This document shows positions 8,678 to 57,110 of a DNA stretch of 64,000 nucleotides, one piece after another (position 1 is the stretch's first letter; each line of letters begins with the position of its first letter). A program made the position numbers and the translations under genes. Source of the stretch: Zygnema cylindricum (taxonomy: Eukaryota; Streptophyta; Zygnematophyceae; Zygnematales; Zygnemataceae); the NCBI GenBank assembly GCA_037447655.1, contig JBBHKE010002548.1, positions 65,987 through 129,986 on the forward strand, in the 5' to 3' direction. Under the pieces are notes generated by a model. The model saw only the letters and a program-made list of their open reading frames with translations, did not search any database and was not told where the DNA came from.

Positions 8678-8875
8678 ATGGCGGGATTGCTTTTCGAGAA
8701 GCACTTATGGGGAATTGTTTCGGGACAAGTGAGATGTCCGCCGCTTGTTTTTGGAGGAGCTTACTATGGAGAATCATCTGAGGTTGCCCAGAATATCATC
8801 CAGAGTTCAGATGCAACGAAAGGTGAAAGGAAAAATCTTTCCGTGGATGGGGAAATAGGCGAGAAGGAAAAAGGG
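8678..8875 (+). pseudogene. Copia-type gag, 5' part, interrupted by Gypsy insertion
   Basis: An ATG at 8678 opens 66 codons that stop being gag exactly where the Gypsy LTR begins (8876). Removing the inserted element and one copy of the AGGG duplication continues the same frame at 20185, which is direct evidence for the insertion site. The piece encodes the gag N-terminus; alone it has no diagnostic motif. Confidence 0.75.
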
Positions 8876-10541
8876 TGTCGTGCATGTGTCAAATAACATG
8901 AAGGTGCATGCAATATCATCAGCTGCGCTCAACTTAAACTCAAATAATAGCGAGATATCGTAAATAAAATAAAACACAAAAGTAAAAATGGATAAATACA
9001 ACAACAGGCAAGGTGGAAGGAAAAGAAAAGTCAACGACTTAGCTGGTTATGGTTAGGTCGGTTTATCATACTAAGCCGATGGATGACCACTAGGCCCCAC
9101 GGTCTATTTATATTCCTTGCAGGAGTTATCTTATCAAGGATAATCTGAATTTATACTTAAATATAATAAATCAAAGCATAAACAACCGGGAAAGATAAAT
9201 AAAACCGCAAATGACAATATGCCCGACACTTATGAGGTTTGAGATAACCAAACTCAAAAGATGCGCAAAAGCCAAATAGAAATAAATACAAAATCACAAT
9301 AAATAAAAACAACACAACAATAATCCCAACATGCAACCTCCACACTAATTAAAGTTCAGCCACAATCGGGAAAAGAAGTTTGTGTTGTGAGATCGCGGTC
9401 GAAATCCACTCAAAAGATGAGAAAAGTGAAGGGAAACCGTGTAGGTCTTGGCCGAAGCCGTATAGATTAATTTGTAAGGCTTTACAAGATATTGATAATA
9501 TAATAGAAAACTAGACGCTTCACGCAAAGGCAGAAAATCGCCTCTAAGCTGTCCGGACAATTTCACAAATAAAAAGATGGCTGCAGAGAATCCTCAATAC
9601 CGAAAATAAATCAAATGAATAATTCCTGCACTTGAAAATTGTGTGCAGGAAATGATGCGAAATGAACTAAGTAACCAAAACTACGCCTAGCGAAAACAAG
9701 CCAATCAGAGTACAGCGTGCTATGTAAATATTTGCGTCTAGTTTGGATTCAGCCAATAGAAAGCCGAAATCCTATGCCCTACGTTACAGATCTATAACCT
9801 ACGGATTAAAACCCTTCCTATCTACATGTGAATGCGTGAACCTCCAAATGGTTCACGACTTAAAATAGTCCAATAGCGTAGCTTCGTCAAAACTGACAGT
9901 ATCTTTGTCTGTCACACGCGTCAACGGTCAAGATGAGATATTACGAGAATCGTATACTTTGCGTCGACGGTCGAGATGCTACTCCGCGCGAAATGATTAA
10001 AATTTGATGTCGGCCGGGATTCAAGGAAATGAAAGCTTGTACGGCAGGATCGCAGATACGGTCCACTTTGTCGTCGCGCGAATTCCGGATAATATAAGTC
10101 GTACGGTCGACGTCAAATGATCAAAGCTACCGTCGGCGAGAATCGCGCAAAATATATATAATACGGTAAGTTTGTTTGTCTCGACGCGATTCGAAAATGT
10201 GTCGTCGGCGAGAAATCCGGAAAAAATAAATAAGTACGGCAGGACCGCAAGTACGGTCCAATTTGTGGCCGCGGGAATTCCGGTCGACGTAAGTCGTACG
10301 GTCGACGCGAAATAATCAAATCCGCCGTCGGCGGAAATCGCGGAAAAGATACGTCGTACGGTAGGACCGCGGGTACGATCCAAATTGCCATACCGGAAAT
10401 CACGAAAAATGTAGGTCGTACGGTACACGTCGTACGGTCCTGCGAAACCCAAATAATACCCAAATACAAATTAGTGTAGCGGCTGCCCTTCCTAACACCT
10501 AAATATAAACAACTAAATGGCCGACGAGATGCGGCATGACA
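8876..10541 (-). repeat. Gypsy 3' LTR (left copy)
   Basis: This LTR runs from TGTCGTGCATG to GCGGCATGACA. Bases 9068-10541 are nearly identical to 18706-20180. Bases 8876-9067 are a 192-base module absent from the right LTR but repeated at 10544-10735. The interior of the shared part is rich in CGTACGGT and CGTCGGCG motifs on both strands, which makes it CpG-dense compared with its surroundings. Confidence 0.85.
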
Positions 10542-10543
10542 GC

Positions 10544-10735
10544 TGTCGTGCATGTGTCAAATAACATGAAGGTGCATGCAATATCATCAGCTGCGCTCAA
10601 CTTAAACTCAAATAATAGCGAGATATCGTAAATAAAATAAAACACAAAAGTAAAAATGGATAAATACAACAACAGGCAAGGTGGAAGGAAAAGAAAGGTC
10701 AACGACTTAGCTGGTTATGGTTAGGTCGGTTTATC
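10544..10735 (-). repeat. 192-bp LTR-end module, extra internal copy
   Basis: Bases 10544-10735 repeat 8876-9067 with about one visible difference. The module begins two bases after the end of the 3' LTR and stops exactly where a run of C starts (G on the sense strand). In effect one part of the LTR end is duplicated between the LTR and the coding region. Confidence 0.85.
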
Positions 10736-10744
10736 CCCCCCCCC
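10736..10744 (-). other. Probable polypurine tract (G run)
   Basis: On the sense strand GAGCTGGGGGGGGG precedes the 192-base module. A purine run at this place would prime plus-strand DNA synthesis in an LTR element. The unusual intervening module makes the exact boundary uncertain. Confidence 0.45.
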
Positions 10745-10750
10745 AGCTCT

Positions 10751-12319
10751 TTAGCCGGCAGAGGAGCTGGCCAACACGACCAGTAGCTCGCGACATCCGT
10801 GGCAAAACCAGTGACCGTCCGGAACTGCCAATAAAGGTGGCACCAAACACTCCATGTGAAACCCCTGATTGCAATGATCACAAAGTAACATGGTAGTTTC
10901 CCCGTCCGATCGATGACAAAAGGTACATGCCGTCGCCTCCGTAATCGGCATTCGCATAGGATCCATATCCTGCGACAAATCTGGTAAGTAACATGGAGCA
11001 CAATTCTTGGAGTGCTCTCGAAAAGTCCGCGTGTCTGCTCCTTGTAATCCCAACATCCCGTTCGGATCCACCTTGATTATTCGTAGGATGTGTGCAGAAA
11101 CATCCGTGTCCAAAGTGTCAAAAGATTGCCTGCGAAGATAAACATAATCTCCCACCCGATAGGGCTTCTGTTGCGGCCTGTAACTGCCGCTGCGAGTGGT
11201 GGCAAACTGAAGTGTGTCCCGATGCTGGGCAATCTGCAAGTTATTAAAAGCCATGGGCATTTCACGGGCAAAAAGCAAAGCACGACGATTGAGTTCTTCC
11301 AAAAAAATAGTGTTAGACATCAGCGGAAGTGGGAAGCTTGCGGCCTTCTGAATATTGCGACGGAGCAACGGTTGTCGCCCAAATAAAACATAATACGGGC
11401 TGAAATTAGCCTGACTAGCCTGAACCGACATGCGATATCCCATGGTAATGTAACCGAGGGACTCGTCCCAAACTGAAATGTGTTTTTCTAAGCAATGCTT
11501 ACGCAAGGCACGCTTAAATGTCTGGACTGCTCGTTCAGCCAGGCCATCGACCTGGGGGTGATCCCGACTAGTACGACGATGATCGATAAGAGCCTCATCA
11601 AGCATCTCTTGAAATTCTCCCCGAAATTGTGTACCTTGATCCGTAAGGACCTCGGCTGGGGCACCGTATCTCATAAGGACATGTTCCTTAAAAGCTGTGG
11701 TGGTTAACTTAGCGGTCTTGTGAGGCAGGGCTACGACTTCTACCCACTTACTGAAATTTTTAATCATAATCATGATATATTGTTTACCCCTACGCGAGAT
11801 AGGAAAAGGTCCGACCAGATCGACCGACCATCGATAGAATAAACCTCTAATAGGTAAAGGTTGGAGCGTAGTCTGCGGGTTAGAGAAAGAAGTCCGGAGA
11901 CGGTCGCAGGTGGCACACTTGTGTAGAATAGCAGCGACATCAGCTTGCATTCCTGACCACCAATACCGTGCCTGAACTAGACTTAACGTTCGCTTGGTAC
12001 CGTAGTGACCAAGCTCGGTGTGAATCTGCCCAATATGAGAAAGACGCTCGGTAGGCCGTGGAACGTGCCTATGGCTTCCGTCTGCCAACAACCGAACTAA
12101 AGATCCCCCGAGCCAAAGGTAACTTTTGGCCCTCTTTTTCACTCTGTCTTCTTCATCAGAGGTGGTGCCGGACCTGAAGGTCTGGGAAGATAGGAAAAGA
12201 ATGAGAGGCCCATCACGCCAAGGATCTGTGGCGGGACGGGGGTTCGGAATAGACGCCAGGCAGTAAGTAAGATAAGAACCCATTGACATGACGGGAACAT
12301 CGTCGTCATCGAAATCCTG
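10751..12319 (-). CDS. Gypsy integrase with C-terminal PHD finger
   Basis: The frame opens right after the TGA at 12320-12322, in frame with the upstream RT protein; its first listed start is at 12289 (numbering below). It encodes the HHCC zinc domain (H90, H95, C125, C128) and the DDE core (D157 in WSVDLVG, D217 in LTDQGTQF, E252 in GLAERAV). A C-terminal DNA-binding region follows. Residues about 454-499 form a C4HC3 PHD finger (C455, C458, C470, C473, H478, C481, C496, C499) with the typical aromatic residue in HWFCHGC. No chromodomain is seen. The integrase inserts the cDNA; PHD fingers commonly bind histone H3 tails, so this one may guide target choice. All catalytic residues are intact. 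The protein was probably the C-terminal part of one polyprotein before the TGA arose. Confidence 0.92.
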   Translation of the reverse strand, partial: QDFDDDDVPVMSMGSYLTYCLASIPNPRPATDPWRDGPLILFLSSQTFRSGTTSDEEDRVKKRAKSYLWLGGSLVRLLADGSHRHVPRPTERLSHIGQIHTELGHYGTKRTLSLVQARYWWSGMQADVAAILHKCATCDRLRTSFSNPQTTLQPLPIRGLFYRWSVDLVGPFPISRRGKQYIMIMIKNFSKWVEVVALPHKTAKLTTTAFKEHVLMRYGAPAEVLTDQGTQFRGEFQEMLDEALIDHRRTSRDHPQVDGLAERAVQTFKRALRKHCLEKHISVWDESLGYITMGYRMSVQASQANFSPYYVLFGRQPLLRRNIQKAASFPLPLMSNTIFLEELNRRALLFAREMPMAFNNLQIAQHRDTLQFATTRSGSYRPQQKPYRVGDYVYLRRQSFDTLDTDVSAHILRIIKVDPNGMLGLQGADTRTFREHSKNCAPCYLPDLSQDMDPMRMPITEATACTFCHRSDGETTMLLCDHCNQGFHMECLVPPLLAVPDGHWFCHGCRELLVVLASSSAG

Positions 12320-15292
12320 TCAAACTCCGTTATCTGTTGTTCGGGGCAAAGGATTTCGGGAAATTCCGTCTGCGTTTAGACTAAGCAGACCTAGTCGGTG
12401 AATTATTTCAACGTCATATTCTTGCAAGATTAAAGCCCATCGGGCTAACTTCCCGGAAAGCTTATCGTTCGTCATCAGCCAATGTAAGGGTTGATGGTCA
12501 GTTAAGAGTGTGAAAGGTTTTCCGTACAAATAATGGCGGAAGTGAACGACTCCCCAAACCGCGGCTAGACACTCTCCTTCGTAGCTACTATAATTTGATT
12601 CAGCCCGGTTATTGCTTCTACTCGCGTAAGCAAATACGTATTCCTCTCCGCTCAACTCTCTTTGTGTCAAAATGGCAGCGATTCCGGGTTTCCCAAAGTC
12701 TGTTTGAAGACAAAAAGGGAGTTTGTGATTGGGAGGACGGAGAATTGGAGCACTTGATAAAACGGTTTTTAATTTTTGAAATGCGGAAATCTGATCGGGA
12801 CCCCCTGTAAACGCCACTTCCTTCTTGAAAAGGTCGTTTAACGAAGATGCGATGGTGCTAAAATTGGATACAAACCTGCGATAATAATTAGCAAGTCCGA
12901 GAAAGGCTCGCATACTAGTGAGGTCCGTGGGAGCAGGCAATTTACTGATTGCCTCTACCTTTGCTTCGAGAGGAGTGATTCCCTCAGCCGAGATAAAATG
13001 GCCGAGGTAAGGCACTCCCTCGGCTCCAAAGGTGCATTTCGCTGGATGACATTTTAATCCGACCTTTTTCAATTCAGTCAATACCCATTCGATGTGAGCG
13101 GCGTGCTCTTCGATAGTAGCCGAGGCAATGATAAGGTCATCGATGTAACATCTAGCAAACTTACAGCCTCCAAGAATGGAGTCCATGACTTTTTGAAATA
13201 TTGCCGGAGCATTTTTCAGTCCGAATGGCATTACGGCCCATTCCCATCGGCCGTCGCTACCCCAAAAGGCAGTTTTATGCCGGTCTTTTTCCTCTATCTC
13301 GATTTGATTGAATCCTTGACGGAGGTCAAGGATACTAAAATAATTTGCTCCGCCTACATGATCAAATGTTTCTTCGGCAAGAGGCATGGGATGACGATCT
13401 TGAACTGTTCTAGCGTTTAGTTCACGATAGTCACCACACATTCGACGTTCAGTAAAATTACCCTCGGAATCCTTTTTCCGAGGCATGACAGTGGGAGCTG
13501 CAAATGTGGAGTCTGACCGATAGATTAGGCCAGCTTCCTCTAGTTCAGCACATCGCTTGTCTACCATTTCCCATTCCGTTTCTGACAAACCATGTTTCGG
13601 TTTAAATATAGGGCGATCATCTTCGAGATCTATCGACATCTTATAAGCGGTGTGACGACCCAAATTGTTCATAGAAAAGGCAAAGGCATCGATATTTCGT
13701 AAAACTACGTCATTCAGTAACTCTTGTTCGGCCTTTGTTAGATTTGTGCCGAATTTCCATTTAGGAGCATCGGGATTTTCGGTTGTCATAGCTTCCATGG
13801 CTTGTGCAAAGGCCAACTGCTCATCTGCGATAAACGTTTGACCTAACTCGTAAGCTACAGGTGTCTGTTTAAGGCAATTTACCGCATGATTCCAACTACG
13901 TGTCGGAAAAGCAGCACTCCAATGAGGAGTGGGTGGAATATGCATGGGACTTATAGACTGGACAGTCGTGTATGCGGGAATAGACCAAGACATATGGCTA
14001 GGATTGAGGAAATCGTAGATAGAGATTTCCGGAACTGGTGGAATTGGAGAAGGAAAGAGGAAAACTTGAAATATGGTCCCTTGGGGAGTGGTACGGAAAG
14101 ATTTTCTTAGTGATGCATTCCCCCCCCCAGCTGGTTGAGATGGATGTGCCTGAGAGTGGCGACCAGCTGCAAACCCAAGACCTAAAACAAAAGACAAAGA
14201 CTGAGGGTCCATGACACGACCTAATAAAGTGCATCTTTGACGTTCAGTAAGACCAGAAGCGGCAGTAGTGCCGGGAATGAAATGCATTAGGTGGTCTCGT
14301 TCCGTAGAGGTAGGCTCTTCAAGCTCACCGGTATGAATGTTTCGAAGCATGCCAGGACCGTCATTAGAGAATGCATGTGAATGTGGGTAAGAAACTAAGG
14401 TAGGAAGCACTTTGAGAGGTTGACCCGGGACATTGACACTGAAATTAGGGGGACAGTCCTTTTGAATGCAAGGCTGCACCTTATGAAAAGGAAGAAGGGC
14501 AGCCTGAATGTCTGTAGGAGGAGGACGAACTAACAAGTTGGCCTCCCGAAGTCTACCAATATCGATCAGGTTCGTCCATTTGGAGCGAACCCGGTGTGCT
14601 AGTGAACCATGGGGAGCCGCGTCAATAATAAGAGGCGGACCAATTAATTGTTCGATTCGTTGATAATCAGACAAAACCGTAGGTCTTGGATCATTATAGG
14701 CCGCGACATTTTCCAAGATATACCCCATAGGAGAATCTAAAGTTTGTAGAAAATGCAAGATGCGAACCAACTCAAAAAATAATTTGGTGCGGGGATCGGC
14801 TAATCCGAGACCTTTCCCGGCCCGAGACATTCCCTGGCACTCCCATCCGCCAAAAACTAGATCGATTGGACCAATCTCCAGTAAGTGATGGTTGCCCACA
14901 ATTCGAATGTCTTGTGGGAGGGCGGTATGCATATGCTCGTATACAGATTTTGGTAACAAATGCGGGTATTGGGAATGCAACAGATTACAATGATGTAATT
15001 GTGCTTTCCGTGCTAACGGATCAATCTCCACCGAATAATAAAATCGGATTAATAATCCATTCCGCAAACATGCCAGGAGAGAAGTGCCTATTCCAGCAAA
15101 AAGGTCCAAAATCACTAATCCATTTGGATGAGGTTTCAATTGGACCGGATTCCAGTCAATGGGAAGAAACCCAGAAGAGTCGGTAGGGACTAGGATTGGG
15201 GAAGAGATTGGAGAAAGTGGAATTGACAAGGTTTGGTTATAGATCCGGTCAAATTCCCTCGTATCTATAAGAAAACCTGGGTCACTGAAAAT
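12320..15292 (-). CDS. DNMT3-like cytosine methyltransferase fused to Gypsy RT-RNase H
   Basis: The frame is open from just after a TAA (15293-15295) to a TGA (12320-12322); numbering is from 15229. Residues 38-360 are a C5-cytosine methyltransferase: motif I LDLFAGIG (41-48), motif IV GGWECQGMS with catalytic C131, motif VI LENV (172-175), motif VIII AHRVRSKW (211-218) and a motif IX-like RQRCTLLGR. Spacing and sequence resemble DNMT3/DRM enzymes, which transfer methyl from S-adenosylmethionine to cytosine. The usual motif IV proline is glutamate. RT follows (about 545-760, YIDD at 695-698), then RNase H (D844, E884, D911). No ATG precedes motif I, so expression needs readthrough or upstream fusion. 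The single frame shows the methyltransferase is part of the Pol polyprotein, not a neighbouring host gene. Confidence 0.93.
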   Translation of the reverse strand: MFSDPGFLIDTREFDRIYNQTLSIPLSPISSPILVPTDSSGFLPIDWNPVQLKPHPNGLVILDLFAGIGTSLLACLRNGLLIRFYYSVEIDPLARKAQLHHCNLLHSQYPHLLPKSVYEHMHTALPQDIRIVGNHHLLEIGPIDLVFGGWECQGMSRAGKGLGLADPRTKLFFELVRILHFLQTLDSPMGYILENVAAYNDPRPTVLSDYQRIEQLIGPPLIIDAAPHGSLAHRVRSKWTNLIDIGRLREANLLVRPPPTDIQAALLPFHKVQPCIQKDCPPNFSVNVPGQPLKVLPTLVSYPHSHAFSNDGPGMLRNIHTGELEEPTSTERDHLMHFIPGTTAASGLTERQRCTLLGRVMDPQSLSFVLGLGFAAGRHSQAHPSQPAGGGNASLRKSFRTTPQGTIFQVFLFPSPIPPVPEISIYDFLNPSHMSWSIPAYTTVQSISPMHIPPTPHWSAAFPTRSWNHAVNCLKQTPVAYELGQTFIADEQLAFAQAMEAMTTENPDAPKWKFGTNLTKAEQELLNDVVLRNIDAFAFSMNNLGRHTAYKMSIDLEDDRPIFKPKHGLSETEWEMVDKRCAELEEAGLIYRSDSTFAAPTVMPRKKDSEGNFTERRMCGDYRELNARTVQDRHPMPLAEETFDHVGGANYFSILDLRQGFNQIEIEEKDRHKTAFWGSDGRWEWAVMPFGLKNAPAIFQKVMDSILGGCKFARCYIDDLIIASATIEEHAAHIEWVLTELKKVGLKCHPAKCTFGAEGVPYLGHFISAEGITPLEAKVEAISKLPAPTDLTSMRAFLGLANYYRRFVSNFSTIASSLNDLFKKEVAFTGGPDQISAFQKLKTVLSSAPILRPPNHKLPFCLQTDFGKPGIAAILTQRELSGEEYVFAYASRSNNRAESNYSSYEGECLAAVWGVVHFRHYLYGKPFTLLTDHQPLHWLMTNDKLSGKLARWALILQEYDVEIIHRLGLLSLNADGISRNPLPRTTDNGV

Positions 15293-16978
15293 TTATGGTA
15301 AGTGAGAACTATCGGGCAGAATTTCTTCTGTTGACAATGAATGAAATATTTCCGCCCCCACCGAATTCCCTGAAAATGCAGGTATGGAGGTGGCCGAATT
15401 CACCATAATAGGCATGGGCTTCCTAGCGGAAATTAGCGGAATGCATATTTTGCGTTCCGGGAAGCTAATGGGCCTATAAGAAAATGTCTGATCATGCATG
15501 TCAACACCACCCCCTACACGAAATATAACGTCCTGCCCCACTAGGCATTCATAGTCACTACATTTAGTGACTAGAGCGTGAACCGAGATTTCAGCAAAGT
15601 CTGTGGCCGTTTCGTTCTGGAACCTGAAAACCAGCGGTTCCTTAGTGATTCCTAGGACCAGTTCGGTTGTACCTGCTGATGTTAACAAGCAAGTAGAAGT
15701 GGGCTGAAGCTTGTCCGGAGTTAGACCAAGCTTCAGTGCAAAGCTAGAGCCCAATATCACCGGCTTTGCACCCGTATCCATGAGAGGCTGGGAAGGGGCT
15801 ATACCATTGATCAACAATGCACCCTTCGCATTATCCAAGAAACTGATGTGAGGATCGAGAGACTTTCGCTCCTCCATAGAAATAGGCTGAATAGCAGCAA
15901 GATTTCTGTGCAGCTGAAGTGCTTGTAACGCGGCAGCTGCAGCCGAGCTATCGGAGGGTAAAGAGATAGGAGAGATTTTTGGTGAGTCGCAAATCATAGC
16001 GGAAAGAATGCACAAGCGTTCTTTCACGCGGTGTGCTTCATGTATAGTTCGATCCACTATGTTGAGAGCTTCAGCCGCGATGGCTGAAGCGGTTTCAGGC
16101 AAGGGAGGAGAAGGTTCTTTAGTGAATGACAAAGGAATACGTGTGTTAGGGGTTTTACCGTCACGACTGTGATCAGTTGAACCTTTGTCAAACATAGCCT
16201 CTCGTTGTTGGATGGTGGAATCTCGTAAGATTGGACCTGCTAACGTGGGCATGTGTACAACAGTGCGAGCCATGCCTGTAAATTGTGGCTTCATTTGCGT
16301 CATGAAAGCTGCGAATTGTTCTTTCATCATAGCCGCCATTTGCTCTTGCATTTCTAAGCGCTCTCTCTCTCTTCGAGATACCTTAGGTGGAGTGGTGTCT
16401 TTTTCCGGTTCTTTTACCGGTTGAACCGGCCTTGCGGATCGAGCTGGAATGCCACCACTCTTAATTTGGTTCTGATATGAATATTCTGGGTTCTTTATAT
16501 GACAACGATGGACATAATGTCCGGTTTGCTTGCAATGTGTACAGGTAGCAGTTTTGTCTGGACACATTCGGGCATCATGCCCGGTCTTCCCACATCGGAA
16601 ACATAATCGGTTTCCGGGAGCAACAGGTGGGGTTCCCATGGCCGGGACTTTAGGAGGCCGGTTGTTAGGACGAGGATTATTCCATGGTGGAACAATTGGT
16701 TCTTTTAAGACCGCTTTAGGTCGGTCATGGGCTTCCCACCAACAATTTTGCATTTCGTATTCCACGGCATGTTGGGCGGCTTGGTCGAAAGTGAACTTCA
16801 AGCCATACGTTTGAGTCAGGTGACTCTGGATGAATTTCTTGGACTGACTCGGAAACTGTCCTACAAATTTTTGGACAGCTTCAGCATCCGACATCAAGTC
16901 AGGCAATGCTTCACGAAGAGCTTCCATGCGAGCACGCATGGCAGGGGCGGTCTCTCCTGACTTCCGTTCGAAGTTCAT
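15293..16978 (-). CDS. Gypsy gag C-terminal part and aspartic protease
   Basis: The 561-residue frame begins at an ATG overlapping the stop of the upstream gag frame (TAATG). It encodes the end of the gag capsid region, two CCHC zinc knuckles (C126/C129/H134/C139 and C146/C149/H154/C159) for RNA packaging, a glutamine- and methionine-rich charged linker, and a retropepsin-like protease with the DTG active site at residues 401-403, followed by ILGSSFALKLGL. It ends in a TAA in the same frame as the methyltransferase-RT protein. The TAA could be an old CAA changed by C-to-T, or a readthrough signal. Confidence 0.88.
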   Translation of the reverse strand: MNFERKSGETAPAMRARMEALREALPDLMSDAEAVQKFVGQFPSQSKKFIQSHLTQTYGLKFTFDQAAQHAVEYEMQNCWWEAHDRPKAVLKEPIVPPWNNPRPNNRPPKVPAMGTPPVAPGNRLCFRCGKTGHDARMCPDKTATCTHCKQTGHYVHRCHIKNPEYSYQNQIKSGGIPARSARPVQPVKEPEKDTTPPKVSRRERERLEMQEQMAAMMKEQFAAFMTQMKPQFTGMARTVVHMPTLAGPILRDSTIQQREAMFDKGSTDHSRDGKTPNTRIPLSFTKEPSPPLPETASAIAAEALNIVDRTIHEAHRVKERLCILSAMICDSPKISPISLPSDSSAAAAALQALQLHRNLAAIQPISMEERKSLDPHISFLDNAKGALLINGIAPSQPLMDTGAKPVILGSSFALKLGLTPDKLQPTSTCLLTSAGTTELVLGITKEPLVFRFQNETATDFAEISVHALVTKCSDYECLVGQDVIFRVGGGVDMHDQTFSYRPISFPERKICIPLISARKPMPIMVNSATSIPAFSGNSVGAEIFHSLSTEEILPDSSHLP

Positions 16979-17796
16979 TAACTCCGAACTTGGTCAGGGT
17001 TTTGCATACGGTATTCCGCTTGCAACATTTCAAACATGACAGAGAGCGGATCCAATATAGGGATCGTCATCGCTGGTCGTGCTGGAATTCCAGCACGTGC
17101 GGCTATAGCAAACTGTTGCGGTATTTCCGCAACTGCTGCTGTAATAACATCGCCATTGAGATCAAGGACTTCCGGGATAGCCGGTTGGTATGGAATTTCT
17201 GGTTGTCCTATAATAGCAGGACTCCCAGCAAAAGACGGAGAGAACTCTGTCATCGCAAGTACGGAATCATACTTGCGAGAATAAAGAGTAAGGGCTGAAC
17301 CTCGAAGGTAACGACCTAAGAGAGAGAAAGCGACCCGTAGGTCGAACCGATCTTGGTACCGAAATGCAAGATCACGCATTTCGGTATCGAATAGCATTCG
17401 AAAATGCGATAACGTCATGGTATCCTTCATTCCTGAAAAACAGAAATGAAGGCGGCCCCCCCCCTCGGATGTGGAAGCCATTTCCAATAATGGAATGCTT
17501 GGAGATAAAACAAGCTTGGAAATTTGCGGAAACCAAAAAGATAATGAATCGGAATCCGACCCGTCAAGGGAATCGCGGTCAGATTCCTCTTCGAAAAATG
17601 TGGAAGAGACTGATGATAAGGAAGATACTGAGGTGAGAGTGGATCGAACCGAAGGGGAAATTTGACCCGAGATATTTAGGGAAGGATGGTCCAAAAGACT
17701 AGAGAAATCTGATGGTCCGGATTCCGTGGGCCTAAACGAGGCCGACGATCGAGTGGTTCCGACAGGATAATCAAGATTATCCCAATTGGTGGGCAT
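16978..17796 (-). CDS. Gypsy gag N-terminal part
   Basis: The 272-residue frame starts at ATG 17796 after a leader of about 900 bases. It has a serine- and acid-rich N-terminus, then a capsid-like region starting near residue 100. It stops in the middle of the capsid homology region (FEMLQAEYRMQNPDQVRS then stop), and the homology continues in the next frame, shifted by -1. The stop and the next ATG overlap by one base, so either termination-reinitiation or a one-base mutation would explain the break. Confidence 0.8.
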   Translation of the reverse strand: MPTNWDNLDYPVGTTRSSASFRPTESGPSDFSSLLDHPSLNISGQISPSVRSTLTSVSSLSSVSSTFFEEESDRDSLDGSDSDSLSFWFPQISKLVLSPSIPLLEMASTSEGGGRLHFCFSGMKDTMTLSHFRMLFDTEMRDLAFRYQDRFDLRVAFSLLGRYLRGSALTLYSRKYDSVLAMTEFSPSFAGSPAIIGQPEIPYQPAIPEVLDLNGDVITAAVAEIPQQFAIAARAGIPARPAMTIPILDPLSVMFEMLQAEYRMQNPDQVRS

Positions 17797-18705
17797 AAAA
17801 ATGATAACACCAAATGATGACCAGATAACAAAACCGATCTATCCGATATGCTTCAAATGCCAGGCCACACCACTCTTTTGTCCAATCAGCCAATCAATCC
17901 CTAACAGGGCCTCGATGGCCAGATCTATCAGGAAGCCGTATTACCAAAACCTTCTACCCTGCAAACAAGGGGACAAGGCCGAAGGGCCAGATCTATAAAG
18001 GCAAATAACTTACTATCCAAGCACTCCCAAGTGCAGATCTAAAGCGGCACAATCCACAAAAATGCTAACCAATGCCTCCAACGGCAAGATCTATGAAAGA
18101 ACTCCCACTCCGGGCAAAGCAAACTCAGCCAAGGCCACTCAGGGCCAGATAGCAGGCAAGGAAAGCTGGACGAATGCAATGCTCAATACAAGTGGATTAA
18201 CACTAATCCACTCCAAACACGATCCCTCTATACGATCAACCGACTACCTTAACACGCGCCTGTACCCGCAAGGCATCGTGATACTTACATACCACTCTTA
18301 GCGATCTGGTGATTGCCAAGGGTGAACTGCGGTTGTTCGCTACAACCGAAGTTTTGCAGAGCTCCCAAGAACGGATCCGCTCCACTAACTCCACTCCTTA
18401 GTGAAATATGTCTCAATGTGAGCAAACGATGCTCGAGATATATAACAAAAATTGGGAAAAACAAAAACCAAATGCTTAAGTTAGTGTAGTATATTGTTGG
18501 CCGAAAATTGGCCAATAAGATAAAACATCAACTAACAAGCAAATGGTAATTATAAATGTAAAGCTAATTATATATATATCAAAAAATATATATATATATT
18601 TTTTTATATTTTTGTTTTTTTTTTTCTTTAAATAAAAAGAAAACCGAAATTGAAATAAAAACAAACAAGCGAGAAAGGAAAATAAGACAATTTTCAAGTG
18701 CAGGA
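17797..18705 (-). other. Gypsy 5' leader
   Basis: This is non-coding sequence between the right LTR and gag. It contains an AT-rich stretch (18560-18660). The first leader bases on the sense strand, ATTCCTGCACTTGAAAATTG, also occur inverted inside the LTR. I could not match a tRNA primer-binding site with confidence. Confidence 0.6.
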
Positions 18706-20180
18706 ATACTAAGCCGATGGATGACCACTAGGCCCCACGGTCTATTTATATTCCTTGCAAGAGTTATCTTATCGAGGATAATCTGAATTTATACTTAAAT
18801 ATAATAAATCAAAGCATAAACAACCGGGAAAGATAAATAAAACCGCAAATGACAATATGCCCGACACTTATGAGGTTTGAGATAACCAAACTCAAAAGAT
18901 GCGCAAAAGCCAAATAGAAATAAATACAAAATCACAATAAATAAAAACAACACAACAATAATCCCAACATGCAACCTCCACACTAATTAAAGTTCAGCCA
19001 CAATCGGGAAAAGAAGTTTGTGTTGTGAGATCGCGGTCGAAATCCACTCAAAAGATGAGAAAAGTGAAGGGAAACCGTGTAGGTCTTGGCCGAAGCCGTA
19101 TAGATTAATTTGTAAGGCTTTACAAGATATTGATAATATAATAGAAAACTAGACGCTTCACGCAAAGGCAGAAAATCGCCTCTAAGCTGTCCGGACAATT
19201 TCACAAATAAAAAGATGGCTGCAGAGAATCCTCAATACTGAAAATAAATCAAATGAATAATTCCTGCACTTGAAAATTGTGTGCAGGAAATGATGCGAAA
19301 TGAACTAAGTAACCAAAACTACGCCTAGCGAAAACAAGCCAATCAGAGTACAGCGTGCTATGTAAATATTTGCGTCTAGTTTGGATTCAGCCAATAGAAA
19401 GCCGAAATCCTATGCCCTACGTTACAGAATCTATAACCTACGGATTAAAACCCTTCCTATCTACATGTGAATGCGTGAACCTCCAAATGGTTCATGACTT
19501 AAAATAGTCCAATAGCGTAGCTTCGTCAGAACTGACAGTATCTTTGTCTGTCACACGCGTCAACGGTCAAGATGAGATATTACGAGAATCGTATACTTTG
19601 CGTCGACGGTCGAGATGCTACTCCGCGCGAAATGATTAAAATTTGATGTCGGCCGGGATTCAAGGAAATGAAAGCTTGTACGGCAGGATCGCAGATACGG
19701 TCCACTTTGTCGTCGCGCGAATTCCGGATAATATAAGTCGTACGGTCGACGTCAAATGATCAAAGCTACCGTCGGCGAGAATCGCGCAAAATATATATAA
19801 TACGGTAAGTTTGTTTGTCTCGACGCGATTCGAAAATGTGTCGTCGGCGAGAAATCCGGAAAAAATAAATAAGTACGGCAGGACCGCAAGTACGGTCCAA
19901 TTTGTGGCCGCGGGAATTCCGGTCGACGTAAGTCGTACGGTCGACGCGAAACAATCAAATCCGCCGTCGGCGGAAATCGCGGAAAAGATACGTCGTACGG
20001 TAGGACCGCGGGTACGATCCAAATTGCCATACCGGAAATCACGAAAAATGTAGGTCGTACGGTACACGTCGTACGGTCCTGCGAAACCCAAATAATACCC
20101 AAATACAAATTAGTGTAGCGGCTGCCCTTCCTAACACCTAAATATAAACAACTAAATGGCCGACGAGATGCGGCATGACA
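18706..20180 (-). repeat. Gypsy 5' LTR (right copy, lacking the 192-bp module)
   Basis: About 1,475 bases match 9068-10541 with roughly seven differences, including one single-base indel near 19430. It ends GCGGCATGACA next to the AGGG duplication. It begins abruptly at ATACTAAGCC without the 192-base module seen twice at the other end of the element. Confidence 0.88.
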
Positions 20181-20184
20181 AGGG

Positions 20185-21066
20185 ACACCTATGGTGAGGG
20201 GAGCTAGGCTCTCAGCTATGGTACCACTTATAGGGATTAAAATTGAAGAAAATGACAGAAAAATATGGGAATGCAAAAACACTATAACAAAACATCTCAT
20301 ACTTAGATATGTGTCTAAGTCCATAGCTATCACTTTTTTAAGTCTAACCTAGTCTTCAGAGATATGGGAAGAACTAATTCAGATTTATAAGAGTGAGACT
20401 ATTTAGAGGCAGCAATTAGTAAAACAGGAAATAGAGACCTACGTTTATAAAGGCGGTAGCATGATAGAGTTTTGCAATGATTTTGCTGCGTTATATGTTG
20501 AGCTAACTAGTGCGGGATATGTAGAATCTGAGGAGAGTAAGATTAATACACTACTTATGAAACTCCCAGATGAGTACGAAAACATCATTTGTCGTATGCA
20601 GGCAATGGATGGTTCCTCATGGACTTGGAGCTTTACCATGGGGATAATTCTTGTGAGGGAAAGCACTTTGGAGCTTCGTAGGGGAAAGGACAGGGTAAAT
20701 GCATTTTCAGTTGGTGGTGATTGGCGGAAGCGTGATGAGAGGAACGACGGTGACGAGCGGAAGCGTGATGAGAGGAACGGTGGTGACGAGCGGAAGCGTA
20801 ATGAGAGGAACGGTGGTGATGAGCGGAAGCGTGATGAGAGGAAGAAAGACAAAGGTAAACCTTATCGGAACTTTGGTGGAAAGAGAGGGAGAGGAAAAGA
20901 AAGGGGAGCTTTGAAAAAAAGGGTTTGCTTCTTTTGTAGGGAACCGGGTCATTATATGGAGGAATGCCCTTGTTTGGAAAAACTTAGAAGTTGGAATGTG
21001 GATGAGGAGGAAGAAGGGGAAGAGGAGAAAGAGGATGAAGATTTTTTTAGATCTTCTCCGGATTAG
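20185..21066 (+). pseudogene. Copia-type gag, 3' part, with two stops
   Basis: This continues the frame broken at 8875. It matches Copia gag (UBN2 type): KIWE, a run of hydrophobic positions, SSEIWEELIQIY, the FNDL-like FCNDFAALYVEL, and LMKLPDEYENII. In-frame TAG codons at 20350-20352 and 20404-20406 disable it. Downstream are four tandem copies of an 11-residue GDERKRDERNG-like unit (about 20720-20845) and a single CCHC knuckle (CFFCREPGHYMEEC), then an acidic tail. The gag protein packages element RNA. No protease, integrase or RT follows, so the element is non-autonomous. Confidence 0.8.
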
Positions 21067-23552: not shown

Positions 23553-26500
23553 CTACACAACCCTAACAATCTTAACTCCACACCCTCGAAGATTGTGGAT
23601 GTGGATTGGATCCCTTGGTGGAAGATCTGGGAGGCCCCGCTTCTCATCCGCCACTGTGCTCCGCCGCAGAAGGGCCGCGGCTTGCGCCCGTTGAAGAGCT
23701 ATTGAAACTCGTTGACGGTAAAACGAAACAAGAAGGCTTCGGGGAGGGCTTTGCGGACCTTGAGACTCAAATGTCTTCTTCGCACAGTTGCGGAGGAAAT
23801 CATCAAAAGACTTGTCCAAAGTACCAAAAATTTCTGCGGCAAATGGCACAAATTGGTCCGCCCGGTCTTGGTGAGCGTAATCTCTTTCCTTAGAAGTTGC
23901 TGCGTCCCAAGCCGCCACGCTTGTATGTACCACCGCATGAGAAGAAACGTGGGTCCCAGTCGGATGCGTGAGGACCACATCACCCAAAGTCCTCCCAGCC
24001 CCATGGAGGAAAACCAAGTCAACTCGAGTTCTTCGAAGGCAATTAGACAGAGAGCGAGGAGGTAGTACATGAGAAATTTCGCGCCTCACGGTGTAGCCTG
24101 CGTCGATGCCAATTGCAGCATTTGAGTCGCGAACCAAATCATGCGCAACAGTACGTTCACCGCCCCTAGAGCAACGGAGTAGATGAATCCCGTCCTAGTC
24201 GATAGGTTGGTTACAAACACAATGGGGTCGCCCAAGAAGCGCAAGTTGAGGCAAACCCAAACGAAGAAGTACGGCAGATGTGAATTGACGTCAGACGAAG
24301 TGTTGAAAACTCGGCGTGGCTTGCAACCAAGCACCAACCCCGGCCCAGAACACGAACGCAGTCGAGCACGCGATTGAGCAGAAGGTAGCGCGTTTAAAAG
24401 GTTATGGAATTCAACGACTGCCAATTGCTCGGTTATACGTTGTTGGAGATGAAAGTTGTTGTCGGAAATAAGAGTTGGAAATGGTGGAACCTTGTTTTGT
24501 GCATCAGATGGGAGGAGTGCACGCGCAGTGAGAAGAGTCTCATGAAAAGGAAAAAGGTTTTCCTCCACCTTAGGGACAACTAGGGCGAGGATTCGAACGT
24601 CATCGACGATAAATCGAGAGGTGATGGTAGGTGCCACTAAAGCCCAACTACCCAAATATGCCGTCGGAGCAACTCTAGCCACGGGAATCAAACCTAAACC
24701 GCCATTCGAAATAGGGAGACTTGCTTGTTGGCGAGCAAACGAGCCCTCTAGCCGATCAAAAATCCCATGCCCAACGAGGTGGTGGAGTACGCTGAAAATT
24801 TTGTCGTCGAAGTCCTTAAGAGAAGACAAAAATGAGGGCGTTGGTGGGACAGTTGAGCAAGATAAAGAGGACGTTGAGCAAAACAACGAGTGAAGATTGC
24901 GAAAGCCACTTGGGAGTCGGAGAGCTTAAGAAGGTAATCCGAGTGCGAGAGGTCCTCCAATAAAGCATCACTAACAACCTGGTTCACAAACGATGGGGTG
25001 CCAATAGGAGATCCCAAAGCTTTAATTCCCTCTGTTGAAGACGCGATTCGAAAACCCATAGGGACGGGGTAGTTAGAAGGTAAGCCTTGGGGGCACCACG
25101 CTACACATTTAGATGGCTTTATTGATAAACAGATCTTACAAAGTTGCTCTGCAAAATGTGTGAAGGCAGACAAAACCTGGTCACGGGGACCGACAATATG
25201 CGTATCATCCGCAATCGAAGGGAATAAATAACCTGGAAAAGCCGCAGCAGAGTCCCGCAATGCCTGAAGATGAGCCAACGCAAAGAGGGGTGCCCCTAAA
25301 GGATCACCCTGGCGAGTGCCAGTCGCAGATTCTAAAGTGGCAACATCACCAAAGGGACCGCCAAGAGGAAAGATGAGGGGGCTTGGACGAGAATAAAAGG
25401 TACGCACAAAAGGGAAAATCTGGTTAATTGGCGATGGAGCATGCCTTAATTCTCGAAAGATAACATTACGACTAACCGTGTTAAATGCGTTGGCAACATC
25501 CACTTGAAGGACCACCCAGTCCGGATGGAGGTCTAGAAGAGCCCGAAGGCCATGAACAACTGCCTCACAACCTCCCTTGGTAGCGACTCTAAACTGGTGC
25601 GGTATAAAGTGGTCATGGAAGGCCCCTTGAAGTTGAATACACATTGCACGAGCCACCAATCGGTACAAAACCTCTCCAATAGCAATAGGACGAATGCCGC
25701 CAGCTGGTTTGGAAACAGCAACGAGACGTGCTGCAGAAAGAAGTGGTATAACATGGTGAGGGACGTCCCCCCGAGCCACCCCAAAAGCCACTTTAAAGAA
25801 AAGGTCAAAACCTTGAGAGGGGGTCTCAGGAGGAAATACATCTCGTAGGAGTTCATAAACCATGCCAGATGGGCCTCCCGCCGAAAGATGAGGAGACCGA
25901 ACTAATGCTTTTGTAAATGCGTCTCGCTCTAAGTTAAAAGACTCGAGTGGATCATGCACCTCAACGAAAGGAAGGATCTCGTCACGGGTAGGAGGATGGA
26001 GCAAAAGCAAATCTTCAACTGTTGCCTCTGATGACGAAGACGGGGTGAAGGGTCGAAGCGTACGAGCAGCTCGAGAAAAATCTCTAGAACGACCAAGGTG
26101 GATCGCCCGATGTTATCTCGCTATGGAGCCTGGAAGTGGGGCATGACGCTTAGGAGGGGACCTGGAAAGACCTATGACACGATCCGTGTGCTCATGTTGC
26201 AATGACTCCCAATCTCCCCTCAAAAATCGTTGGCAACGAGCCTTCGTCTCACGAGCCCCGCTTGCACCCCCCCTTGTTGGCAAAACCAAAACCCAAAGAG
26301 GAAATAGGAGCACTAAGTGCCATGCCGCGTCGTTGGCGATGTCTTTAGCCAATAATGCTAAAGGAAATCGAAGAGCCGTTTGGACAAAATCACGAAGATT
26401 GCTTAGGATACGAGTGTACAATCGAGGGCGTGGATAACCCAAGTGATAACACCCTAGAACGTCGAGACGACGAACATATTGCCAATCAGCAGGAGATGGT

Positions 26501-44747: not shown

Positions 44748-47700
44748 TTACAGGGCCTCAATTATGAGCTGGTACCCATCGGGCACGGGCCCTCTGGTTC
44801 TCACCGCCTCAGCTAAAGGAAGGAGGTCGGTTTCCGGATCCAAAAATCGAGAGAGAAAGAGAAGTAGATGGAAATCGGCGATTCGTTCCGAAAAAGGTCG
44901 TCCTTTAGTGCGTTCGAGATGTTGACGAAGTTCTCGTTCACTTGCGGGAGAGAATCGGTTCTCTACCGGAAAAGTCGACCTCAAAATCCCCTGTTACCAC
45001 CACCTCCTCTCACTCAAATACATTAGAATACTAATAGAATAGAGTCGGTATGCTTTCGTATGGTGATCCAAAGACGTTGTTTTAGGGTTTTTAATCAAGC
45101 CATAAAAAACAAGAAAGAGAAAAAGTATTGTACACTGCCCATCCTTATTCAAGTTAACACTCTAATTCGAGTGTGTTTTATTTACCCCAAATCATAAAGA
45201 AGTGTTAAAGACACTGTTTTACTAGGTGGCCGTAATGGGCCACGTGGCAATGCATAATTTAGTGTAGTTAATTCTAATAAAACGTTAACAAAAAAAACTC
45301 GTTAACTCTAACAGCGATGGGCTGAGTAGTAGAACAGAGTCAGCATAAGCGATCATAAACAAAAAAAAAAGAAAGAAAGCGGAACTGTTTGTCCCAGGAA
45401 AAGATATAAAGCCTACCTGATGATCTTGAATCTTGACGGGAACTAAAAAGAAGTCGTTATCCACTTCCTGTGTGTCTTTTCCAGCTAACACTACGTCCGC
45501 CTTCATACGAGACAGGTTTTGGGGTGTCTCTGGAGAATCAATAAACCAGTCCTCTCGATACAATTTCAAGCACTGGTTACTTAATTGAAAAGCCTCGAAA
45601 TGAACATCGGCCGTCCCTTCCTCGTTTGTCTCCAACTTCACAACCGCCGCCGAGAATTGGTCCAACCCCGTTTCTGTTTGTAATTCAGCAATTTGTCGAA
45701 TTTCCGCGTTTCCCATGGTGTAGTTTTGATCTTCTCCACTTATCGCTCGAGTGAAAACGAAACCGACTCGACGCATTCCCAAACCCGATGCGATGAGATC
45801 CACTCGTTTCTCTTCGTCTGCTTGGAGAGACACTCACTCAGCCTCAGCTGGAATAAAAAACAAGACAGACAGCCGTTGCAAGACTGCAAAGTGAGTGGAC
45901 AACATGTGTCGAGTGAGAGGACTAGCAAAACTGAAGCAGAGGACGATATATGCATGAATTGACATGATTCGACATCCTCGAGAGCAATATCAAATTAAAG
46001 TGAGTGGAGGACTGTGTATGATTCAACATGCTTCGGCATGACTTGACATGTCATGTATGAATATATCGAGAGACTATGCAAAAAGAAAGAGAAAAGGAAT
46101 ATGGTTTACATGCTTCAACATGATTCGACATTATCGGGAGGTCTAGCAAATGGAAGATAGAAAAGAAATATGCATGATTCAACCTGATTCGATATGAGTT
46201 GACAAGTATCAGGAGGAAAAGACAAAAAACATAAGAGAAAGAAGGAATATGACTCAACATGATGCATCATGATTCAGTATTTTGAAGACTAAGAAGGAAT
46301 ATGACTCAAAATGGTGCATCATGATTCAGCATTGTGAAGACTACGAAAATTGAAGAGAAAGAAGGAATCTGTATGATTTGACATGATTTACCACGAGTTA
46401 ACATGTGTCGAGAGGACTAGACAAGAAGGAAAAAAGAGAAGGAATATGATTCAACATGATTCGACGATGTAGTGGATTAGCAAAAATTAAAGAGAGATAA
46501 GGCATGCATGATTCAACATGATTTGACACGCATCGAGAGAACTAGACAAGAAGGAAGAGAGAGGAATACGATTCGACATGTGTCAACATGAAAAGGAAAA
46601 AGTGGAACACAAATGAAGACAAAAATGAAGACCAGAAAAATCCTAAAAAACCTAAAAAAAAATTATACGTGTCGGTAGAAGTAGCTAAAAATAAAGGTGA
46701 AATAATAAAAGAAGACATGTCGACAGAATTAGCAGAGAAACCGAAACAGAAAATGAAAATGATATGAAATTGAGCAAAAATAGTAATAACTAGATGTCTG
46801 CTCAACCTGTTTACAACAAAAAGCAAAATTTTCATCATAGTAAAATAATTTGCACACTTATCAAAAAACATAACGAATGTAAAAGGAAATTTATAAAAAC
46901 AGCCCACCTTTGTCTCTCATGAGGATCAAGTTATCCACTGTCCCCTGTTGAGGAGGCTCGTATACAAAATCCACCATCACCTCTCCCCCCTCCGATATTT
47001 TTCCATACATGAAACCTCCCCTTCTCACAGAAAACGCCAAAATTTGATGAACATAATGCTGCTCCCCCCAACAAAAAAATTCCAAAATGAGTTATGGCGA
47101 CAGTCATTTGTTTGCCTTTCAATTTTTTTTCTTTCTTCTGCCCGGTTTCTTTCTTTTTTGATGTGTCTCCAACTTATCCATATTTCATATTTAAAAGACG
47201 CATAAAGACTTGCAGCTATTTCCAGGAAATTCCCAGGGGACAAAAAACGGAATTGAATTGTTCTACCAATTGATAGCCACACCTGCCTCCTTTGACTAAT
47301 TTTAACCCCAAGATATTTCTAGGGTTTGACAGTACTGGAAATTAAGTGTGGAACTAACATTAAAACACATAGTAAAAAATCAAAAAAAGACACCATTTAA
47401 AAAATAAAAAATAAAAAAGGCAGAGAGAAAGAGTGTGGCATCCAAACCCAAATCCTACTATGCCATACATTCAAAATAAAATTAAAATAATAATATCCAA
47501 ATAATGGGAAAGGAAGGAAAAACTAAAATATCAGTTGCCAACTGCAAGATATTTGTAAATAAAAATAGTCGAAAATGCAAGATAGGGTATATTACAACAT
47601 GGAAGGAAACTACGGCAAATTAAACAAAGACGGTAACACTAAGTGTTAAGATGACAACAAATTGTTAAGATGGCAACTAATTGTTAAGATGGCAACTAAT

Positions 47701-49911: not shown

Positions 49912-51114
49912 TACACCGCGCATCGTAATTAGAGTAAATTACTCTAATTCGGTCGCTCGAAATTTCGACTCTATCACATCAAATAGAGTAAACGATTCTA
50001 ATTTTTTCATTATTCTAATTTAGGTATGTTTTAATTAGCGTAACAACATTCTAATATAGGTTCGTTTTAAATAGTGTGGAATACGGACGACGTCCGACCG
50101 TGCAAAATTGTACTTTTTAAGTAAAAAGATAAATTTAATGATTTAAAAGAGTCACGCTCACACGTGAAATCGCACTAAACAAAAAGACTCAATCATATCG
50201 AAAAAAAAGTTGTTCACATAACTCTCGTCCGTCGAGAGTATCGTCGTCAGTGTGAACACTTACCTTAATATCCATGCCAGAAGTTTATAGTACAACGACG
50301 AAAATACATGTTTGCCTTTATTTCCGTAATAATTTTGTAACAGTTGTTCGACGTTCCGCGTATTCAGTTAGAATAGGGAACTTCGTAGCAATATCATTAA
50401 AAATGTATTCTAATATAGGATCGGGTCTATTTTAGCGTAAATATTAATTCTAAATAAACCAGACTTACCAAAATGACCCTTGAAAGGAGTAACTTTTAAC
50501 TGTAATATGGGTTTTTTACCACGATGGCACATGAAATAGAGTAACCATATTGACAAAAATAGAGTAAATATACATCATTTGGCGTGGGTGATATGTGTCG
50601 TGAGATAACGCCAAATGCGGGCAGACCTCACAAAGTGTAATATTTTTGGACCAATCACAGTCACTCATTCTTTGTCCAATCACAGTCACTCATTCTTTGT
50701 CCAATCACAAACAGTCTTTTTTTTTGTTTGTAACCGCCATCTTGACTGCGCCGCCATCCGGAAAATCTCTCCAATTTTTCAAATGGGATCTGTGAAAGTC
50801 TCGCTCCCTTTTTCACCGCCATGGATTCCACGTCGCCCACGTCATCGCTTTCCTGCCATCTGCTTACTTTCTTATAATGCTTCCTTTTTTAGGGTTTTGT
50901 TGTTTGAAATAGCGAAAAAATTTATGCCAGCCAACTCCACCATTGATGACAAGGCAATATCCTACTCTCTTAGTGCAGTGGTTGAATATGATGTGTCACA
51001 AGTCAAAGCCAAAAATAGAAGGGAAGACAATGAAGGAAAACTGCCAAAACATCAAAATACAAAATTGAAAAAGAAAACTTAAAAGACAAAGCTGAGTTAT
51101 CTGCCTAATTTTCT

Positions 51115-52470
51115 GTCTAATTATCTGGGTAATTATTTATCTATATAACCTGTCCAATTCTCTATCTAATATAATTATCTATATAATCTAATTATCTGTT
51201 TAATTATCTGTTTAATTATCTGTTCAATTATCTGTCAAATTATCTAATCTAATTATCTATCTAATCTAATTATCTTTCTAATCTAATTTCACTATCTAAT
51301 CTAGTTATCTATCTAATTTAATTATCTATCTAATTTAATTCACTATCTAATCTTATTATCTATCTAATCTAATTATCTGTCTAATTATCTGTCTAATTAT
51401 CTATCAAATAATCTGTCAAATTACCTATCCTATTATGTGTCAAATTATCTAATCTTATAATCTAATCTAATTATCTGTCTAATTATCTGTGCAATTATTT
51501 GTCAATTATCTAATTAATTATCTAATCTAATTATCTATCTAATCTAATTATCTTTCTAATCTAATTCACTATGCAATCAAGTTATCTATCTAATCTAATT
51601 ATCTATCTAATATAATTCACTATCTAATCAAATTATCTATCTAATCTGATTATCTCTCTAATTATCTGTCTAATTATCTGTCTAATTATCTGTCTAATTA
51701 TCTATCAAATTATCTGTCAAATTATCTGTCCGATTATATGTCAAATTATCTAATCTTATTATCCAATCTAATTATCTGTCTAGTTATCTGTATAATTATT
51801 TGTCCAATTATCTATCAAATTATCTAATTAATTATATAATCTAAATATCTATCTAATTTAATTATCTTTATAATCTAATGCACTATCTAATCTAGTTATC
51901 TATCTAATCTAGTTATCTATCTAATCTAATTGACTATCTAATCTAATTATCAATCTAATCTAATTATCTATCTATTTATCTGTCATATTATCTAATCTAA
52001 TTATTTTCCAAATTACCAATCTAATCTAATTACCTATCTAATCTAATTATCTATCTGATCTAATTATCTATCTAATCTCATTATCTATCTAATCTCATTA
52101 TCTATCCAATCTAATTCACTATCTAATCTAGTTATCTATCTAATTCAATCATCTATTTAATCTAATTATCTATCTAATCTAATTATATATCTAATCAAAT
52201 TATCTATATAATCTAATTATCTGTCTAATTATCTGTTTAATCATCTTTCAAATTATCTTATCTAATTATCTGTCGAATTACCTATCTAATCTAATTACCT
52301 ATCTGATCTAATTATCTATCTAATCTAATTATCTATCCAATCTAATTCACTATCTAATCTAGTAATCTATCTAATCCAATTATCTATCTAATCTAATCAT
52401 CTATCTAATCTAATTATCTATCTATACTCATTATCTATCTAATCAAATTATCTGTTCACTTATCTGTCAT
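51115..52470. repeat. AATTATCTATCTAATCT satellite array
   Basis: About 1.35 kb of degenerate copies of an ATCTAATTATCT-type unit. It is the reverse complement of the unit in the array at 54.66-57.1 kb, so the two arrays form a very long interrupted inverted repeat. Confidence 0.9.
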
Positions 52471-54630: not shown

Positions 54631-54662
54631 AGTAAAAAACATCATACAAAATATGGGGTTAG

Positions 54663-57110
<2,448 letters not shown>

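Follow-up and report, generated by a model that had tools for sequence, protein, structure and literature searches.

Split direct repeats and the idea of a circular intermediate are associated with the DIRS/PAT/Ngaro elements; the Ty3/gypsy group normally inserts linear cDNA, and two-LTR circles are usually viewed as dead ends of LTR-element replication. The element described here is like the DIRS/PAT/Ngaro elements in repeat topology, and differs from them in integrase type and target duplications. Ordinary LTRs and chromodomains are found in the Tf1/Sushi and Tcn1 elements. Self-priming, which is proposed below for the present element, has been predicted for Tf1/Sushi and plant Tcn1 elements in a survey whose accessible text, by term search, contains no mention of a methyltransferase, PHD or Klebsormidium (PMC6317226). 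Among published elements, the nearest to the present one is KnitGypsy-Dnmt3 from Klebsormidium nitens (de Mendoza et al., 2018, PMC5890265), in agreement with the charophyte case mentioned in an earlier note on this DNA. As described in the main text of that paper, KnitGypsy-Dnmt3 shares with the present element a DNMT3 inside a Gypsy Pol, repeats that are “the same as that of a DIRS retrotransposon”, and a DNMT under purifying selection; expression of the KnitGypsy DNMT in yeast yielded no methylation, a result that the authors call inconclusive. SymbioDIRS-Dnmt3, from the same source, also combines DNMT3 with RT in Pol and an A-coding-B-A-B arrangement, but is of the DIRS class with a tyrosine recombinase, in contrast to the DDE integrase and target duplications of the present element (PMC5890265).

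Because KnitGypsy-Dnmt3 was published in 2018, both the capture of a DNMT and the repeat arrangement were already known. The main text of PMC5890265 contains neither “circular” nor “primer binding” and uses “TSD” for a LINE alone, and the target duplications, palindrome, variable A|B join, PHD finger and DD34E integrase of the present family go beyond its account. KnitGypsy-Dnmt3 is the described DNMT-Gypsy element in the literature examined, and no account of the insertion route of such elements was found in the mostly open-access literature searched. As far as these searches go, the target duplications, the palindrome, the variable end-join, the putative self-priming, the signature of DD34E with PHD, and the breadth of the lineage, in which two domain orders occur, are new.

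The window analyzed here is a 64,000-nucleotide stretch of a Zygnema cylindricum contig (JBBHKE010002548.1), and all of the element features given below lie on its minus strand. The frame at 12320-15292 is open over 990 codons and contains a DNMT3-class C5 cytosine methyltransferase domain (14138-15175), a reverse transcriptase with YIDD (12998-13453) and an RNase H (12416-12799). The earlier note had proposed the fusion, in one frame, of a DNMT3-like domain upstream of Gypsy RT and RNase H, to be checked with a methylase profile; the profile match is significant (Pfam DNA_methylase 9e-12, RVT_1 2e-30, RNase H 2.5e-33), and Pfam is in accord with a profile search of the PDB and with a high-confidence AlphaFold model, which confirms that this Pol is a DNMT3-class cytosine methyltransferase fused to Gypsy RT and RNase H. 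The next frame, at 10754-12319 in the same register, encodes an H2C2 integrase zinc-binding domain (11894-12049, Pfam), an rve catalytic core with DD34E spacing (11555-11836, Pfam and a count of the Asp-Glu spacing) and a PHD finger at the integrase C terminus (10793-10927, Pfam 2.9e-10). A gag lies 5′ of Pol; its 5′ part (16978-17796) matches residues 4-162 of the relative P0088, and its 3′ part (15293-16978), which ends with TAA, contains a zinc knuckle (PF00098, 9.8e-5) and matches an aspartic protease weakly, at a score that falls short of the cut-off (PF13650, 3.3e-4). The Ty3/gypsy order RT-RNase H-integrase with an rve DDE integrase is present; the element is a Ty3/gypsy-type retrotransposon whose Gag-Pol comprises protease, DNMT3-class methyltransferase, RT, RNase H, and DD34E integrase with a C-terminal PHD finger.

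The gag, Pol and integrase frames of the window copy are separated by the stops TAA and TGA, and gag shifts frame near 16978. The joins are open at these places in the relatives P0088 and P0002, and Pol matches in the same genome have open frames of up to 2395 aa. The two stops and the gag frame change, set against these open joins, indicate that the window copy is partly disabled, despite the 99.5% identity of its A repeats. In the 352.8 Mb genome, at least 57 matches to the window Pol were identified, several of them without stops; this number is a lower bound for the matches, some of which are pieces of one copy. The DNMT is located upstream of RT, whole or nearly so and in some cases in another frame, in 17 of 18 Pol loci examined. 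The window element is thus one copy of a multi-copy family, and a chance insertion of the domain into a single copy, which the earlier note had held out as the alternative, is ruled out by the 57 matches and by the DNMT of the other genome copies.

When the methyltransferase domain of the window alone (METHYLTRANSFERASE) was used as a PDB query, DNMT3A ranked first, and a profile of eight sequences retrieved DNMT3C/A/B, DRM, HaeIII and HhaI, DNMT2 and DNMT1, in that order. The best profile scores were 84.7 bits for DNMT3, 54 for DRM (4onj; DRM2 52), 47 for bacterial enzymes, 35 for DNMT2 and 23 for DNMT1, and the lower values rule out DNMT1, DNMT2 or a bacterial enzyme as the closest class. 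The AlphaFold model, built with 29 aligned sequences (pLDDT 92.2, pTM 0.90), has DNMT3A/B as its best structural match, and the domain is predicted to have a DNMT3 fold. In a DNMT tree, the sole DNMT3 row (DNMT3C, on a long branch) was placed with the 54 rows that the retroelement searches had supplied, and nine other rows lay opposite, without resolved order.

Does the domain act as an enzyme, or is it a passenger that serves, for example, as a nucleic-acid-binding part of Gag-Pol? Motif IV of the window DNMT is Glu-Cys instead of Pro-Cys, which would suit a passenger; the Cys itself is retained, and among 33 rows including the window this residue pair is EC in 16, PC in 15, DC in one and SC in one. 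The catalytic Cys is also retained in nine of 10 genome copies (window counted), and the invariance of Cys, Glu-Asn (motif VI) and Arg (motif VIII) across the window and 12 aligned relatives argues against a passenger, as does a low dN with saturated dS: between the window and seven diverged genome copies, dN is 0.12-0.26 in the DNMT, compared with 0.26-0.36 for the linker and 0.07-0.13 for RT-RNase H. For the two copies that have diverged less, each of which bears stops, the DNMT dN/dS ratios are 0.36 and 0.34, and in the four pairs with usable dS, which mostly involve stop-bearing copies, the ratios are 0.34, 0.36, 0.50 and 0.24 for the DNMT and 0.33, 0.40, 0.43 and 0.12 for RT. Judged from these substitution rates, the DNMT domain shows purifying selection. 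A frame change within or just before the DNMT occurs in eight of 11 copies compared, many of which were chosen since their match began late, and two of these changes are each common to two separate insertions. Copies with a broken DNMT frame have therefore moved, so that a round of transposition does not always require a functional DNMT in cis; presumably, they moved using proteins from open copies. Such movement, together with the inactivity of the KnitGypsy DNMT in the yeast assay reported in PMC5890265, is what would be expected of a passenger, and a domain without an enzymatic role is nonetheless considered rather unlikely. We also considered whether frame changes are concentrated in the DNMT but abandoned the idea, as one-base gaps also occur elsewhere and the search favors copies with an open RT.

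The split-repeat ends of the element, which lie outside the Pol frame singled out by the earlier note, are a stronger finding than the DNMT fusion; neither they nor the integrase-PHD frame were mentioned in that note. Repeat A (1,475 nt) begins with TGTC at the 5′ end of the element (A1, 18706-20180) and recurs with 99.5% identity on the 3′ side (A2, 9068-10541), and repeat B (192 nt) is present as an inner copy (B1, 10544-10735) and as an outer copy that ends with GACA (B2, 8876-9067), A2 and B2 being joined at 9068/9067. The element thus reads A-coding-B-A-B instead of having the two LTRs ordinary for Ty3/gypsy, and is bounded on both sides by CCCT (20181-20184 and 8872-8875). Split direct repeats of this kind would also fit a DIRS-type element with a tyrosine recombinase, a reading to which the rve DDE integrase and the target duplications leave next to no probability; DIRS membership was rejected, since Pfam gives rve and no recombinase in the four frames scanned. 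The first 600 nt of A1 are CpG-rich, with observed/expected values of 1.85 and 2.48 in the first two 300-nt blocks.

To read the flanks of other copies, the ten copies ranking next after the window in the Pol search were sampled, followed by the 3′ sides of eight more, mostly picked for high identity, the 5′ sides of six of those eight, and three places found with repeat B. The A-coding-B-A-B arrangement is present in nine insertions in which both A copies are readable, with A1/A2 identities from 89.2 to 100%. On the 3′ side, 21 places were read, the solo A-B C1290 not being counted, and 17 of them have two B copies flanking an A-sized stretch; in two places (C2495 and C561), the stretch between the B copies has no match to the window A and was scored by position. 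Two of the 17 places are biased because they were found by searching with B, and after their removal the pattern is seen at 15 of 19. The second B is absent at the other four of the 21 places (C2053, C1317, C750 and C2577); C750 and C2577 terminate at GACAGC, the B1 half of the palindrome described below being followed by other DNA.

Both outer borders are readable in 11 insertions, one of which is C1290, and eight of these have perfect 4-bp duplications (CCCT, TTGG, CCCC, TTGT, TAGA, GACA, AAGG and TTCT); three of four bases agree in C449 and C2573, and no target duplication was found in C2577. The chance probability of these duplications, computed on eight of 10 with C2577 left out, is 2e-18. 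Recombination or gene conversion among resident copies of an ordinary element could in principle produce A-B-A-B ends, and the existence of a solo A-B (C1290) and of an A-coding-B copy (C2577) points in that direction, but an own perfect duplication in eight of 11 insertions, seven of them around the full arrangement, and the description of the same arrangement for the Klebsormidium element in 2018 (PMC5890265, main text) make such an origin very improbable.

The internal borders of the element suggest how it replicates. A putative self-priming primer-binding site at the A1 border (18687-18707) is complementary over 21 nt to 19260-19280, where A forms a hairpin (19261-19289) whose loop and 3′ arm are complementary to the site, and the longest inverted match among 40 shuffles was 12 nt. 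A self-complementary site of 14-21 nt is present at the A1 border in 10 of 10 copies. A putative polypurine tract, AGCTG(10), lies directly 5′ of B1 (10735-10748), its last G being common to both. B1 and A2 are separated by a GC linker (10542-10543) at the center of the palindrome GACA-GC-TGTC, the candidate integrase site, which is found at the B1|A2 junction in eight of nine copies of the first set, with a GT center in the other one. Among eight further copies, three have the palindrome intact, C2495 and C1548 carry altered versions, and a pattern search did not find it in C561. The B|GC|A junction is nearly fixed, and the A|B join varies: the A2|B2 joins sit at the borders of the primer site and the G-tract with 0-3 extra G and differ among nine copies, and A2 is shortened by ~80 nt in C2234 and by ~537 nt in C262, each time joined to the start of B, with A1 of the same copies complete.

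These features would be explained if the RNA probably starts in A, the minus strand is primed by pairing of the 5′ hairpin arm with the site directly after A1, and the plus strand initiates at the G-tract before B1. By the established biology of LTR elements, the linear cDNA bounded by these borders would be B-A-coding-B-A. Obtaining A-coding-B-A-B from such a cDNA requires a joined INTERMEDIATE, that is, the ends must be joined and the resulting molecule must be opened at one B|A. Joining of the two cDNA ends would create the A|B join and produce a two-LTR circle or, equally suitable as the joined intermediate, a head-to-tail concatemer. The integrase would open this DNA at a B|GC|A palindrome, and A-coding-B-A-B would be inserted, flanked by a 4-bp duplication. 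Staggered cutting behind each CA of the palindrome would result in a 5′-GC overhang, comparable with the two-nucleotide 5′ overhangs (5′-AT) produced when foamy-virus integrase cuts the palindrome of a two-LTR circle on both strands, as described in PMC1180852; the foamy-virus palindrome arises by the joining of LTR ends, whereas that of the present element is encoded inside the repeat.

Alternatively, the outer B2 might be copied directly, from a longer RNA or by an unusual template switch, so that a linear A-coding-B-A-B cDNA would undergo ordinary integration with no joined intermediate. The terminal TGTC...GACA and the 4-bp duplications do resemble ordinary integration of linear ends; a copied B2, however, would retain one inherited join, whereas the A|B joins differ between copies, lie at the borders of primer site and G-tract, include G remnants in some, and in two copies follow a shortened A2 and not A1, and direct copying is for these reasons regarded as unlikely. 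Some observations count against a joined intermediate: the four of 21 places without a second B, the two imperfect duplications and the missing one in C2577, the palindromes altered in C2495 and C1548 and not found in C561, and the opposite opening product, A-B-A-coding-B, for which no B was found in 15 5′ stretches (nine searched with their own B, six with the window B). No circle or concatemer was seen among the sequences, and the self-closure of the contig L001 described below is explicable by assembler handling of repeats. The domains and repeats, the palindrome, the duplications and the variability of the A|B join are read directly from the sequence; the joined intermediate and its cutting are inferred. 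The explanation as a whole, from the DNMT-bearing Ty3/gypsy-type element to its insertion through joined cDNA, is considered highly probable.

A protein search, in which 7,995 candidates were scored, identified 277 relatives, 120 of them listed; a search with the DNMT part identified 11, and an alignment search 78, the weaker of which include bacterial methylases by name. The window DNMT was matched by 39 of 130 proteins pooled from the protein and DNMT-part searches. In an RT tree of the 109 rows with a long enough RT stretch, all DNMT-labelled rows fall in one 68-row group (midpoint root; SH-aLRT 91, and 99 for 67 of the rows); in many of these rows the sequence begins only a short way upstream of RT, so that the presence of a DNMT is not readable. 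The Asp-Glu spacing of the integrase is 34 residues in 40 of 40 readable rows of this group and 35 in 25 of 26 readable rows among the 41 outside, and a PHD-like pattern is present in 27 of 40 and 0 of 26, respectively. Two domain orders occur, DNMT-RT-RNase H-integrase, as in the window, and RT-RNase H-DNMT-integrase; P0147 (DNMT) and P0004 (RT) come from contigs that are both 9003 long. On the basis of this tree, a single acquisition of the DNMT is likely.

Most rows of the group lack a host name, and the named hosts are Klebsormidium, Closterium, Marchantia and Calypogeia. A DNMT was observed in records of Closterium (P0007, P0028) and Marchantia (P0008, P0010), and none was seen in the records of K. 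nitens P0034 and P0064, which also belong to the group. The earlier note's reading of a captured DNMT is supported, and the lineage, given its DNMT-bearing members in Closterium and Marchantia, is more widespread than the note's word “rare” implies. It extends to liverworts, with records of Marchantia, both with a DNMT, and of Calypogeia, in contrast to a statement in PMC6338049 that land plants “such as tracheophytes” lack transposons coding for a methylase.

Scans of viral contigs identified no relative, and 16 of 17 loci from a prokaryote collection had no DNMT match. The sole matching locus, L001, is a contig of 9,285 bases that is assigned to a cyanobacterial MAG and is taken for eukaryotic contamination. 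Its frames encode gag-protease-DNMT and then RT-RNase H-integrase-PHD (protease and PHD read by eye), with identities to the window of 41% for the DNMT and 53% for the RT part and with a DD34E integrase, and its ends repeat 127 bases. In L001, a G7 tract is followed by the 14-mer CACGACAGCTGTCA, which is identical to the window B1|A2 junction and occurs in none of the other 16 loci; it has zero mismatches, and 17 of 200 shuffles had a match at two or fewer mismatches. A hairpin and a 13-nt complementary site come next (0 of 100 shuffles of that stretch reach 13), so that G-tract, palindrome, hairpin and complementary site are ordered as in the window element.

If the proposed route holds, the integrated copies themselves would record joined cDNA ends, insertion after insertion, and this record makes the question of whether a circle is a precursor directly testable. 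A free double-stranded DNA phase, which the joined ends suggest, may explain why the element carries a DNA methyltransferase. The earlier note had suggested that the element could methylate its own or neighbouring DNA; our conjecture is that the most likely substrate of the enzyme is the cDNA of the element itself, either before it integrates or as it does so. The best solved relatives of the PHD finger are PHF12, ubi-d4, DPF3, KDM5 proteins, WSTF and BAZ2B, several of which read unmethylated H3K4. A more speculative extension, to which we give some but distinctly less than even weight, is that in the whole lineage the site of integrase action has shifted away from the cDNA ends and into a palindrome of the repeat, so that its elements must insert from circular or concatenated cDNA, that the DNMT3 methylates this extrachromosomal DNA, and that the PHD finger steers insertion to chromatin without H3K4 methylation. 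Elsewhere in the window, an Rfam scan of the 64 kb gave no match at gathering scores, and an NPL4 exon at 45285-45833 is, in our estimation, plant-like in look.

Two pairs of separate insertions in the same genome, loci L032 and L034 and loci L027 and L028, each have in common a frame change that falls within the DNMT and leaves the RT open; this pattern suggests that the members of both pairs moved using proteins supplied by other copies. Two further insertions, C750 (locus L058) and C2577 (loci L061 and L067), end at the inner B repeat (B1) with GACAGC and continue into other DNA without A2-B2, and a target duplication is absent at C2577 (L061, L067). These ends are possibly traces of cutting at a resident B|A site. 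In addition to the G-tract before B1, the coding region of the element contains two nine-G runs on the minus strand, at 14120-14128 and 17456-17464; the former, which comes after AGCT just as the G-tract before B1 does, is a possible central primer site for the plus strand.

The first 600 nt of repeat A (19581-20180, minus strand) contain subrepeats of ~195 nt and 74 CpG, with CpG observed/expected ratios of 1.85 and 2.48 in two blocks, both above the averages of all six other stretches measured (0.76-1.11).

Outside the window, a DNMT-Gypsy element occupies positions 1-9285 of L001, a contig deposited as part of a cyanobacterial MAG; the contig probably entered this public prokaryote genome as contamination from a eukaryote. 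On the evidence of predicted proteins, the DNMT-Gypsy lineage is also harboured by a land plant, Marchantia, since two of its records (P0010 and P0008) each join DNMT and RT in a single protein.

Elsewhere in the window, an NPL4-family exon (45285-45833, minus strand; PF05021, 4.4e-6) is the sole likely host gene among eight other frames scanned. Other elements are represented by a Copia-type gag with a zinc knuckle (20461-21066, plus strand), the gag match of which is under Pfam's cut-off; an RT belonging to another element (24748-26010, minus strand); and a second Gypsy integrase fragment containing a stop (63664-63990, minus strand). Two repeat arrays, at 51097-52467 and 54660-57109, are related to each other and lie in opposite orientation.
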